A DNA stretch of 64,000 bases from Candidatus Ancillula prorhinotermitis. GTDB taxonomy: Bacteria > Actinomycetota > Actinomycetes > Actinomycetales > Bifidobacteriaceae. The notes below the pieces were generated by a model. It did not search any database, had not been told where the DNA came from, and was given only the letters and a program-made list of their open reading frames with translations. Position numbers and translations under genes: made by a program. This document shows, in pieces, positions 285 through 61,654 of this stretch; the stretch's first letter is position 1; each line of letters starts with the position of its first letter. Where the stretch lies: contig JAITGF010000014.1 of the NCBI GenBank assembly GCA_031280795.1, forward strand, positions 1 through 64,000, in the 5' to 3' direction.

Positions 285-316
285 CGCGCCGATGCTGAAT
301 ATGATATACTTTAGTT
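285..316 (+). promoter_or_regulatory. dapD leaderless promoter
   Basis: Extended -10 TGA-TATACT (hexamer 305-310) is followed by exactly six bases and then the dapD ATG at 317, so transcription would start on the A of the start codon. A CGCGCC block at 285-290 lies 14 bases upstream of the hexamer. No Shine-Dalgarno sequence precedes the ATG. Confidence 0.75.
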
Positions 317-1315
317 ATGGTAAATGATAATGTACCCGAGTTCGGTTTTGGATGGGGGTTAGTGACTTTTGACGCTAAAAATAATGTACTAGATACTTAC
401 TTTCCAGAGCTAACCATCGGCGATAATAAGTATGCTGATACTGCAAAGCTTTCAGCTGAAGTAAAGGGCGTGCCTGATAGTTTGAAGTCTCTAGAAGGCG
501 AAGACGCCTACCGAAGAGTTAAGCGCGTTGCAAAGTTCATAATTTCTAGCTTACAATTTGCGCCCGAGAGTACTGAAGATGTTTACCTAAGGCTCCATGC
601 CCTCTCGATGCGACTTTGTGTTCCTAATAGCATTAATCTAGAAGGTGTTTACAATTTGCTAAACAACGTTGTGTGGACAAACTACGGGCCTTGTGCAGTT
701 GAAGATTTTGAGACAGTACGTTTACAGCTAGCTAGTAAGTTTGGTCTACCGCCCACTGTTTTGTTGATTGACAAATTTCCGCGTATGGTTGATTATGTGA
801 TACCAAGTGGTGTGCGCATCGGAAATGCAGACAGGATTCGCCTCGGCGCGCATTTAGCTGAAGGTACTACTGTTATGCACGAAGGGTTCTGCAATTTTAA
901 TGCTGGCACACTCGGCACATCAATGGTTGAAGGGCGCATTTCTCAGGGAGTTACTGTAGGGGATGGTACCGATATTGGCGGAGGGGCGTCCATTATGGGT
1001 ACTCTTTCTGGTGGTGGCGAAGAAGTAGTTAGTCTTGGTAAGCGCTCATTACTTGGAGCCAACGCTGGGCTCGGCATTCCACTTGGTGATGATTGTGTCG
1101 TTGAGGCTGGTCTTTACATAACTGCTGGAACCAAAGTTCTCTTTGAAGGGGAGCTGTTCAAAGCCCGTGACTTAGCTTTCGCGAACTCTTTGCTCTTTAT
1201 GCGAAACTCCCAAACTGGCAAGGTTGAAGTTAAGCGGAGAAAGAATCATAAAGCCGGAGTTGTGTTGAACTCAGCCTTACATAGTAATAAAAACTCGCTG
1301 AGCGATAAAAATTAG
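317..1315 (+). CDS. dapD: tetrahydrodipicolinate N-succinyltransferase, actinobacterial type
   Basis: DapD succinylates tetrahydrodipicolinate in the succinylase branch of lysine and meso-diaminopimelate synthesis, a cytoplasmic step feeding peptidoglycan. The 332-residue protein has an alpha/beta N-terminal half and a left-handed beta-helix of hexapeptide repeats at about residues 165-275. The repeats include GVRIGNADRIRLGAHLAEGT and SQGVTVGDGTDIGGGAS, characteristic of the Mycobacterium/Corynebacterium form of the enzyme. Length matches that form. The start is fixed by the leaderless promoter: ATG follows the -10 hexamer by six bases. Family assignment is firm. An rsgA remnant lies immediately downstream on the same strand. 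Confidence 0.93.
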   Translation: MVNDNVPEFGFGWGLVTFDAKNNVLDTYFPELTIGDNKYADTAKLSAEVKGVPDSLKSLEGEDAYRRVKRVAKFIISSLQFAPESTEDVYLRLHALSMRLCVPNSINLEGVYNLLNNVVWTNYGPCAVEDFETVRLQLASKFGLPPTVLLIDKFPRMVDYVIPSGVRIGNADRIRLGAHLAEGTTVMHEGFCNFNAGTLGTSMVEGRISQGVTVGDGTDIGGGASIMGTLSGGGEEVVSLGKRSLLGANAGLGIPLGDDCVVEAGLYITAGTKVLFEGELFKARDLAFANSLLFMRNSQTGKVEVKRRKNHKAGVVLNSALHSNKNSLSDKN

Positions 1316-1320
1316 GTGAA

Positions 1321-2136
1321 ATTATCCAAGGTTTCGAAGATGAGTTAATTCGCTTAGAAGACAATTACGAAAAGAACCTGACACGCGCTACTAGCAAAAG
1401 GGTCACACCACCGCGCTCAAAACTACGTGGAACAAAAAGATCCAATGCTACTGGAGTGGTATTAGCTTCGCACCGCGGTCGTTACCAAGTCTACCTTGAT
1501 GGAGTAACTCTCACAGCTGCAAGAGCAAGAGAGTTGCGCGATTTCTCCATAGTACCTGGTGACAATGTCGAGTTATGCATTGCTGAAGGCGCGTCCGACC
1601 TTAGCCGAATTGAGTCAATTTCAAAACGATTTAACGCCATAAAACGAACTAGCGATGACAGTAAAAGTAAAGCAAAAACTATAGCTGCCAACGTCGACCA
1701 AGTGGCTATCATCACGTCTACAACCGCCCCTAATATACAGCCGGAATTCATAAAGCGTGTGATATTAGAGTCTTTACTTCAGAAAGCCACTCCGTTTTTG
1801 ATTATCACGAAGAGCGATTTAGCCAAACTCGATGAATCAATGCTACCCGATGATGCAAAGAATATCGAGCGATTTGACAAATCCACGCAGTATTTGGAAG
1901 TGTTAGAAAAACTTAAGTCTAAAAATACCGTCTTCATCGGACTTTCGGGGGCAGGTAAGTCGACTTTGATTAACCAAATCTTTCCAGATGCCCTACGTAA
2001 AACCTCAAGTGTTTCAGAAAATGGTGACGGGAAGCACACATCCACTTCTTCTGAGAGCTTCATATTCGAAGGTGGGTTAATAATTGACACTCCCGGTATA
2101 CGTAGCTTCGGACTCGGGCACCACAATAAACAATAA
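1321..2136 (+). pseudogene. rsgA: RsgA ribosome-assembly GTPase, truncated at the C-terminus and lacking a normal start
   Basis: RsgA is a circularly permuted GTPase that matures the 30S subunit. Seen here: an OB-fold region (about 1441-1640), G4 TKSD, G1 GLSGAGKST, a G2-like KHTST and G3 DTPG, in the permuted order typical of RsgA. Two things are wrong. First, the protein stops right after DTPGIRSFGLG, so the C-terminal zinc-binding domain (Cys/His cluster) is missing and the groEL promoter follows. Second, recognisable N-terminal sequence (PPRSKLRG and surrounding) extends upstream of the first in-frame GTG at 1456, which would cut into the first OB strand. No ATG, GTG or TTG opens the frame between the stop at 1306-1308 and 1456. 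The coordinates mark the homologous region. It may be a decaying gene, or a shortened protein begun at ATT/ATC; the intact GTPase motifs keep the second option open. Confidence 0.6.
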
Positions 2137-2171
2137 TGCATAGGCGCCCTGCAGACTTTTGGCAAATGTGT

Positions 2172-2217
2172 TATAATTTAAGTACAAAACACTTCTTGAA
2201 ACGATATAGAGAAAGGA
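2172..2217 (+). promoter_or_regulatory. groEL promoter and leader
   Basis: Extended -10 TGT-TATAAT (hexamer 2172-2177) is followed by a leader of about 38 bases with a GAAAGGA ribosome binding site at 2211-2217. So groEL is transcribed with a normal leader, unlike many neighbours. I find neither a CIRCE inverted repeat (TTAGCACTC-N9-GAGTGCTAA) nor a HspR-type HAIR site in this interval, so the heat-shock control common in the phylum is not visible. Confidence 0.65.
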
Positions 2218-60239: not shown

Positions 60240-60267
60240 ATAATTGTCCTTTCTTGTACTCATAACT

Positions 60268-60294
60268 ATTATACACCAAATCTTCATTGCGTGC
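60268..60294 (-). promoter_or_regulatory. glnA promoter
   Basis: Minus-strand TATAAT (60268-60273), preceded by GGTG rather than TGN, with GCACGC (60289-60294) 15 bases upstream. A leader of about 22 bases includes AAAGGA. Confidence 0.65.
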
Positions 60295-60322
60295 ACACCA
60301 AATGTTAAGTAATGTTAAGCCC

Positions 60323-60355
60323 GCGCGCAAGTCAAGATTATGGTATAATGATTAT
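60323..60355 (+). promoter_or_regulatory. glgC leaderless promoter
   Basis: TGG-TATAAT (hexamer 60344-60349), six bases, ATG 60356. GCGCGC (60323-60328) lies 15 bases upstream of the hexamer. Divergent from the glnA promoter. Confidence 0.75.
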
Positions 60356-61654
60356 ATGGTAGCAAACAAAAAAGTTCTAGCAATTGTACTAGCAGGTGGC
60401 GAAGGTAAACGCTTAATGCCTTTGACCTCTTTTCGCGCTAAGCCTGCTGTGCCCTTTGGTGGAACGTATCGCTTAATTGACTTCCCGTTAAGCAACGTCG
60501 TGAACTCTGGGTACATGCAAGTAATTGTGCTTACCCAATACAAGTCGCATTCGCTTGACCGCCACATCTCTAAAACCTGGAGGATGTCGCAACTACTCGG
60601 CAATTATGTATCAACTGTACCAGCCCAGCAAAGAGTTGGCAAGGACTGGTATCAAGGTAGCGCCGATGCTATCTATCAATGCTTGAACGTTATTGAGGAC
60701 GAACGCCCCGACATAGTGGTCATCGTTGGTGCTGATAACGTTTACCGTATGGACTTCTCCCAAATGGTTAAGTCCCACATCGAGTCTGGAGCTGAGTTTA
60801 CTGTCGCAGGAATCCGCCAGCCACTTGAAACCGCTAAAGACTTTGGAGTGATCGATACTGACCCGAACCACCCTGGATACATTAAGCAATTCCTTGAAAA
60901 GCCTAGTAATGCTAAAGGTCTACCAGACTCCCCTAATGAAATTCTTGCTTCTATGGGTAACTATGTAGCAAACGTGCCTGCTTTAATCGATGCCTTAGTA
61001 CACGACCATTCGCTTGCCACTTCCGACACTACGCACGACATGGGTGGCGACATTGTGCCATACTTCGTCGAAAAGGGCGAGTGTGGATTTTATGATTTCA
61101 CTTTCAATGACGTCCCTGGATCAACTGATCGTGATCGCAACTATTGGCAAGATGTGGGTACTATTGACGCGTATTATGAGTCAAATATGGACCTCATAGC
61201 ATCGTACCCCGTATTCAATCTTTACAACAGCAAGTGGCCCTTGCATACTGGCTATGTGGGGCTCCCCCCTGCTAAGTTTATCCACGACGGCAAGGCTGAC
61301 TCCATGCGTGTAGGTATGGCGACCGACTCAATCATATCCCCTGGTGTGATAATTTCTGGTGGTCGGGTTGACAATTCGATTCTATCGCCTGGAGTGCGTA
61401 TTAATTCGTATTCAAACACTACTAACTCCATCATTATGGATAACGTTAACGTCGCTCGTCACGCCACTATAAATAACGCCATATTAGACAAGTTCTCCGT
61501 AGTTGAGGAAGGTGTCGAAATCGGTATCGACCTTGAGCATGATAAAGCGATTGGCTTGTCTGTCACAGAAAAGGGTATAGTGACAGTACCTAAGAGCTCG
61601 ATCGTGCGCAAAGATTCTGTAGAGTTTAATTATGGAAAGATTTTCAGTAACTAG
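60356..61654 (+). CDS. glgC: glucose-1-phosphate adenylyltransferase
   Basis: GlgC makes ADP-glucose, the donor for glycogen and for the maltose-1-phosphate route used by GlgE. The 432-residue protein has [20 protein letters not shown] (nucleotide site), the glucose-phosphate site in [12 protein letters not shown], and a C-terminal beta-helix with [14 protein letters not shown]. Start is ATG 60356; a longer frame from 60287 would translate the promoter as LWYN. The following small gene is close and probably co-transcribed. Confidence 0.95.

Follow-up and report, generated by a model that had tools for sequence, protein, structure and literature searches.

Genes that start six bases after an extended −10 box

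The window examined here is a stretch of 64,000 nt from Candidatus Ancillula prorhinotermitis (contig JAITGF010000014.1, positions 1-64,000), and our subject is the set of its genes whose start codon closely follows an extended −10 promoter box, that is, TGN joined to a −10 hexamer. We call the number of bases between the −10 box and the start codon the gap. An initial annotation had named nine genes in which such a box is followed by exactly six bases and ATG, without a Shine-Dalgarno (SD) site, and each of the nine ATGs was found to open a long open reading frame (ORF). On the plus strand these are dapD (302..319; TGATATACT, ATG at 317; DapD_actino match), a gene for a moxR-type AAA ATPase (6884..6901; TGATATAAT, ATG at 6899; only weak AAA family matches), yhhQ for a queuosine precursor transporter (15441..15458; TGTTATACT, ATG at 15456; TIGR00697) and glgC (60341..60358; TGGTATAAT, ATG at 60356; TIGR02091). 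The minus strand carries cimA (25148..25165; TGGTATAAT, ATG at 25150; TIGR00977), whose promoter sits within the 3′ end of pgsA, purD (27011..27028; TGGTACAAT, ATG at 27013; TIGR00877), an idsA-like polyprenyl synthase gene (38749..38766; TGGTACAAT, ATG at 38751; matches below curated cut-offs), atpB (51441..51458; TGATATAAT, ATG at 51443; TIGR01131), whose promoter overlaps the end of ileS, and ileS itself (54793..54810; TGCTATAAT, ATG at 54795; TIGR00392).

The hexamer after TGN is TATAAT, TACAAT or TATACT, and its first T lies at −12 in 9/9 genes. TRTG (R, purine) stands before the hexamer in eight of the nine; ileS is without the T. By eye, with no energy computed, none of the nine has an SD site at a usable spacing, and that region is filled by the −10 hexamer and the six bases.

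The exact pattern TGNTAYAAT-N6-ATG (Y, pyrimidine) accounts for seven of the sites and TGNTATACT-N6-ATG for two (dapD and yhhQ). In 1000 dinucleotide shuffles TGNTAYAMT-N6-ATG occurred 0.147 times on average and at most twice, against 9 in the window; the box alone was also enriched (32 against 8.85 expected, maximum 20). With one mismatch allowed, TGNTAYAAT-N6-ATG matched 13 times, where 3.12 matches were expected and none of 100 shuffles had more than 8. Across gaps of 0-20 after TGNTAYAAT, ATG was found seven times at gap 6, and no other gap had it more than twice.

The two genes said to fit nearly both have gap 7: metF (6789..6807, minus strand; TGTTATACT, GTG at 6791; metF-like, below the curated cut-off) and topA (63279..63297, plus strand; TGTTATAAT, TTG at 63295), which extends past the window end and bears the name given by the initial annotation, with no profile scan. 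Two further near fits are gyrA (48538..48557, minus strand; TGGTATAAT, 8 bases, ATG at 48540; gyrA match) and ftsK (45103-45120, minus strand), where TGTTATAAT and six bases are followed by ATA-GTG, so that the GTG is at gap 9. The A of this ATA is the expected start base, which would give a three-base leader before the GTG. A small ORF between ftsK and gyrA (45405-45749, minus strand) has TATAAT and a leadered ATG.

The same −10 box also serves genes with a leader. It stands 44 bases before groEL (2169..2224, plus strand) and 27 bases before efp (49656..49694, minus strand), as TGTTATAAT and with an SD-like site in both. Of the five genes that had been listed as combining this box with an SD site, groEL, oppA, efp and FKBP hold, whereas glnA has TATAAT with no TGN in register. 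The groEL gene was leadered in 8/8 relatives with a match, and efp was SD-led in both relatives seen.

The six-base gap in related genomes

The nearest protein relatives of the window are Ancillula. In a scan of genome contigs, and among the best 80 of 539 relatives, IleS was 61-63% identical to four Candidatus Ancillula records and at most 56% identical to metagenome-assembled genomes of termite Bifidobacteriaceae and to other actinobacteria; identity to G001 was 86% for GroEL and 79% for GlgC. Here G001-G004 denote Candidatus Ancillula, G005-G007 termite Bifidobacteriaceae, and G013 and G019 two further family genomes; among the loci, L001 comes from G001, L081-L100 and L161-L180 from G003, L101-L120 from G004 and L061 from G006. 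The window itself was the starting point, and L081-L100 were picked for holding hits. Gap histograms and site classes use contig-order stretches; L081-L100 enter the ORF test, the logo, the ileS and moxR orthologue comparison, the downstream-protein comparison, the tRNA counts, the base statistics of SD-led promoters and the combined rows for the base before ATG.

The initial annotation had proposed a genome-wide count as a check, and in the relatives this count lies far above the reversed-pattern control. On both strands TGNTAYAAT-N6-ATG occurred 101 times in G003 (control 2), 46 in G002 (0), 29 in G001 (0) and 32 in G004 (1), and outside Ancillula 5 times in G005 (0), 16 in G006 (0), 16 in G007 (1), 48 in G019 (1) and 9 in G013 (2). 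In the remaining 32 of the 41 family genomes it occurred 0 times (28 genomes) or 1-2 times (4 genomes). Part of the difference from these genomes is an effect of guanine-plus-cytosine (GC) composition. Samples of G021 and G010 have 58-59% GC and one TGNTAYAAT in 120 kb, and these boxes are too few to judge the gap. The looser TATAAT-N6-ATG also exceeded its control, with 26/4 in G001, 62/7 in G002, 140/28 in G003, 214/30 in G004, 37/8 in G005, 48/21 in G006 and 45/10 in G007.

In contig-order stretches the position of ATG peaked at gap 6 after TGNTAYAAT in G003 (19, next 9), after TATAAT without TG in G004 (26, next 17) and after TGNTANNNT in G001 (40, next 19), while gaps 6 and 7 were equal in G002 (8 and 8). 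The strict box gave 5 at gap 6 in G006 (next 3), and the small samples of G013 and G019 held 0 and 1 gap-6 sites. In G004, which has 34% GC, TRTGN boxes were no commoner than in the control and the peak is on TATAAT without TGN, so the extended box is not a feature of the whole clade. Gap 6 itself is general: in 47 other actinobacterial loci (L005-L052 without L015), where ATG was counted after TANNNT lacking a TGN in front, gap 6 had 67, the next two gaps 56 and 54, and the mean of all gaps but this one was 33.

Gene starts and base preferences at the sites

In G003, 55 of the 59 ATGs at gap 6 start an ORF that either has 60 aa or more or runs to the end of the stretch; the figures are 15 of 18 at gap 7 and, for gaps 0-5 and 8-20 combined, 30 of 140. 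This test includes stretches selected for hits. Starts with an ORF at gap 6 were ATG in 72 cases, GTG in 14 and TTG in 0, and CTG at gap 6 after TGNTAYAAT was found 0 times in the window and the G001-G004 samples.

The logo built from 70 sites in the window, G003 and G002, for which the search already required TG and TAYAAT, reads T (91%), R (98%), TGN, TATAAT, R (88%), N, A (72%), N, N, Y (92%), ATG. The T and R ahead of the fixed TG mark the TRTG form of the box. From the logo alone, the −35 region has nothing stronger than a faint run rich in A from −32 to −30. A pyrimidine precedes the ATG at 67/72 gap-6 and 22/26 gap-7 sites, against a background of 40% before any ATG, and it precedes GTG at gap 6 less often (8/14). 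In 48 SD-led promoters of the same set there was a weak lean at the same place, with Y in 65% at +6 and R in 61% at +7, so the start is apparently selected about seven bases past the box in both classes.

We also sorted all TRTGNTAYAAT sites by what follows them, the leaderless class being gaps 6-8. Of the 15 in the window (reversed control 2), 8 were leaderless, 5 SD-led and 2 other; the unselected stretches of G003 gave 71 (control 3) with 31, 11 and 29, G002 gave 45 (1) with 22, 8 and 15, G001 gave 17 (2) with 5, 3 and 9, and G004 gave 2 (2) with 1, 1 and 0. Leaderless sites outnumber SD-led ones among the classified sites of the window, G003, G002 and G001; the other sites (2/15, 29/71 and 15/45 in the window, G003 and G002) are left unclassified.

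The six bases after the box in G003 are often GGAGGT, GGAAGT or GAAGGT (L081-L100, L161-L180), ahead of mutually different genes. We rejected GGAGGT abutting the ATG as an SD site, since no spacer remains. G at the first place after the box is common in SD-led promoters too (50%). The 16S tail word (anti-Shine-Dalgarno) was present in 4/13 genomes, G003 included; none was found in the other eight symbiont-side genomes searched, from whose assemblies the rRNA is perhaps missing.

Conservation of the gap among orthologues

Orthologues were compared after skipping hits that covered less than 40% of the query, and several of the remaining hits are plainly paralogues. The ileS gene keeps gap 6 in 4/5 readable relatives, namely G002 and G003 (both with TGGTATAAT), G005 (TGTTAGAAT) and G006 (TGTTAAACT), and has gap 8 in G001; in G004 and G007 the contig ends within ileS, and these two copies were not counted. 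Actinobacterial ileS can carry a T-box leader. Rfam gave no family in the window and only tRNAs in seven ileS loci (two from other Actinomycetales), a result that points neither to a loss of the T-box nor to its retention.

For atpB, gap 6 is present in 5/6 relatives that have the gene (G002, G003, G004, G005 and G007, not G013), with changed boxes, and the conserved gap-6 ATG lies 6 to 14 codons inside the protein of the window; a search of G001, G006 and G019 gave no atpB match. The moxR orthologue in G003 also has gap 6. The folD gene is leadered in the window and has gap 6 in G003.

Genes that abut tRNAs in the relatives

No tRNA lies in the window. In G003 and G002, purD (L181, L182; named from the search with the window's PurD) starts with GTG directly after T73-C74 of tRNA-Thr. 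A gene that is presumably glmU starts with GTG directly after G73-C74 of tRNA-Gln in G006 and G007 (L190, L191), and the corresponding locus of G005 (L230) has an in-frame GTG at the same place. An ORF of G003 that we take to be tyrS-like follows tRNA-Gln in the same way (L178), a 152-aa ORF with ATG follows tRNA-Leu in L201, and in L165 the gene starts one base further on past the tRNA discriminator. None of the other 16 glmU loci fetched abuts a tRNA. Such starts are rare: there were two among 37 Ancillula tRNAs, at offsets 0 and 1, and none among 7 tRNAs in stretches of termite Bifidobacteriaceae.

Where the CCA of a tRNA is encoded in Propionibacterium acnes and Streptomyces coelicolor, the cut falls between its two Cs (PMC3848588, PMC4681348). 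By analogy, a cut between the Cs would leave GTG at the 5′ end, and tRNA 3′ maturation could thereby free a leaderless mRNA. The results listed by our literature search held no description of tRNA-punctuated leaderless mRNAs in bacteria.

Discussion

The sites are very probably promoters of leaderless mRNAs, with transcription starting from the extended −10 box on the A of the ATG. To judge from the sequence, they would be promoters of the housekeeping sigma factor with an extended −10 element (TRTGN-TATAAT) and little visible −35. RNA polymerase starts on a purine after a pyrimidine about seven bases past the box, and here that purine would be the A of ATG. A start at this position would give an mRNA without leader and without SD site, presumably translated by the leaderless route from its 5′-terminal AUG. 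The leaderless reading put forward earlier is supported by the excess of sites over the shuffles and of the genome-wide counts in relatives over their control, by the ORFs that open at gap-6 ATGs, by the pyrimidine that nearly always precedes these ATGs, by the lack of gap-6 TTG starts with an ORF, and by the six-base spacing that most orthologues of ileS and atpB retain.

Several observations weigh against this reading. For the strict box the G001 sample is without a peak (gap 6 has 4, gap 4 has 5), though TGNTANNNT peaks there. In G005 the strict box gave 0 at gap 6, and TATAMT was only slightly in excess there (12, next 11). The gap test finds glgC leaderless only in G001 and G004 and not in six others (2/8), and neither dapD nor purD is promoter-leaderless in any of the three relatives with a match (0/3 each). 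Gap 7 also occurs, and a little gap 8. Since ileS, atpB and moxR keep the gap and dapD, purD and glgC vary, the gap is kept where the promoter is kept, and the class of a gene differs between relatives. Among the relatives, gap 7 forms a genuine minor class, so six is the mode and not a strict rule. The uniform spacing, which had been presented as a strong regularity, stands as the mode; it is not odd in itself, because a −10 box ordinarily lies six bases from the transcription start.

The sites of gap 7 and 8 could also mean that at many genes the transcription start lies one to five bases away from the start codon, giving short-leadered rather than strictly leaderless mRNAs. The GTG of metF and the TTG of topA both have A as the seventh base, right before the start codon, which would make a one-base leader, and spacers of 3 to 11 between −10 box and start are reported for Corynebacterium glutamicum (PMC3890552). 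However, ATG peaks at gap 6, and the pyrimidine before the A is retained at gap 7, so that the start apparently shifts along with the ATG; we therefore regard tiny leaders as unlikely. It is more improbable still that the box has no role in its place by the ATG, and that the transcripts in use begin at more distant upstream sites and carry ordinary leaders. Read-through is conceivable for cimA and atpB, whose promoters lie within the end of the upstream gene, but the enrichment over controls, the ORF test and the kept spacing argue otherwise, and the box occupies the very position of an SD site.

An origin of the pattern in chance, AT-rich composition or a repeated element is close to refuted, and we give it next to no weight. 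The box is indeed AT-rich, and several copies of TGGTATAATGGAGGTATG occur in G003, but the dinucleotide shuffles and the reversed-pattern controls speak against it. The repeat was rejected as a cause because the proteins downstream of the listed G003 sites, which bear what we assume to be housekeeping names, differ from each other.

That leaderless mRNAs are known in actinobacteria, as the initial annotation stated, is borne out by PMC3160421, PMC3898074 and PMC3890552. Zheng 2011 (PMC3160421) described TANNNT signals about 12 bp before the start codon of actinobacterial leaderless genes; with this placement standard in Actinobacteria, any leaderless gene should show gap six. The sites of the window and its relatives resemble those genes in a hexamer that begins about 12 bp ahead of the start codon, the lack of an SD site, the housekeeping functions and starts that are mainly ATG with some GTG (72 vs 14 at gap 6). 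In contrast to high-GC actinobacteria, where the middle of TANNNT is uninformative (PMC3160421), they have a near-consensus TATAAT with TRTGN. Mycobacterium tuberculosis has a weak −35, and about a quarter (26%) of its genes with a primary transcription start site (TSS) start at the start codon, as proposed here, but only 7% of its TANNNT promoters carry TGN (Cortes 2013, PMC3898074).

C. glutamicum (PMC3890552) has 33% leaderless genes and a preference for AUG, and is reported to have many extended −10 promoters of the form TGnTATAAT, so the combination is not alien to the phylum; its wider spacer range covers all promoters. In Bifidobacterium pseudolongum, of the same family, 15% of 174 confident TSS lie at annotated starts, and we saw no box consensus for the leaderless class in the available part of that report (PMC4782308), which calls the pyrimidine-purine context, the usual one at initiators, universal. 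Our class shares count strong boxes found by motif and not transcripts, and are not directly comparable with the 26%, 33% and 15% of these mapped species. The T-R-T-G-N ahead of TATAAT is like the Gram-positive TRTGn extended −10, which in Mycoplasma gallisepticum is not tied to leaderless genes (25/1061 TSS carry TRTGn, and nine transcripts are leaderless; PMC4245973). As leaderless genes, those of the window are thus of the known actinobacterial kind, unusually uniform here, and the difference lies in the box (TRTGN-TATAAT).

Ancillula and Opitulatrix are endosymbionts of termite-gut flagellates with eroded genomes (Kastle Silva 2025, PMC11707648); the words 'leaderless' and 'promoter' occur 0 times each in the main text of that paper. 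A literature search over titles and abstract openings, with most subscription journals outside it, gave no description of leaderless genes in termite symbionts. More tentatively, and with rather less confidence than even, we suggest that in the protist-endosymbiont Bifidobacteriaceae the leaderless mode may be the default for promoter-proximal housekeeping genes, reached through strong TRTG-extended promoters that would start on the A of the start codon and through tRNA cleavage just before a start codon (purD, glmU and the tyrS-like gene). For this uncultured symbiont clade the pattern would provide a rule for gene starts, in which TRTGN-TATAAT, six or seven bases ending in a pyrimidine, and RTG mark both the 5′ end and the start codon, and the rule would correct the annotation of start codons. 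Because folD, glgC and purD differ among relatives in being leaderless or leadered, the switch between the two could be followed at short range.

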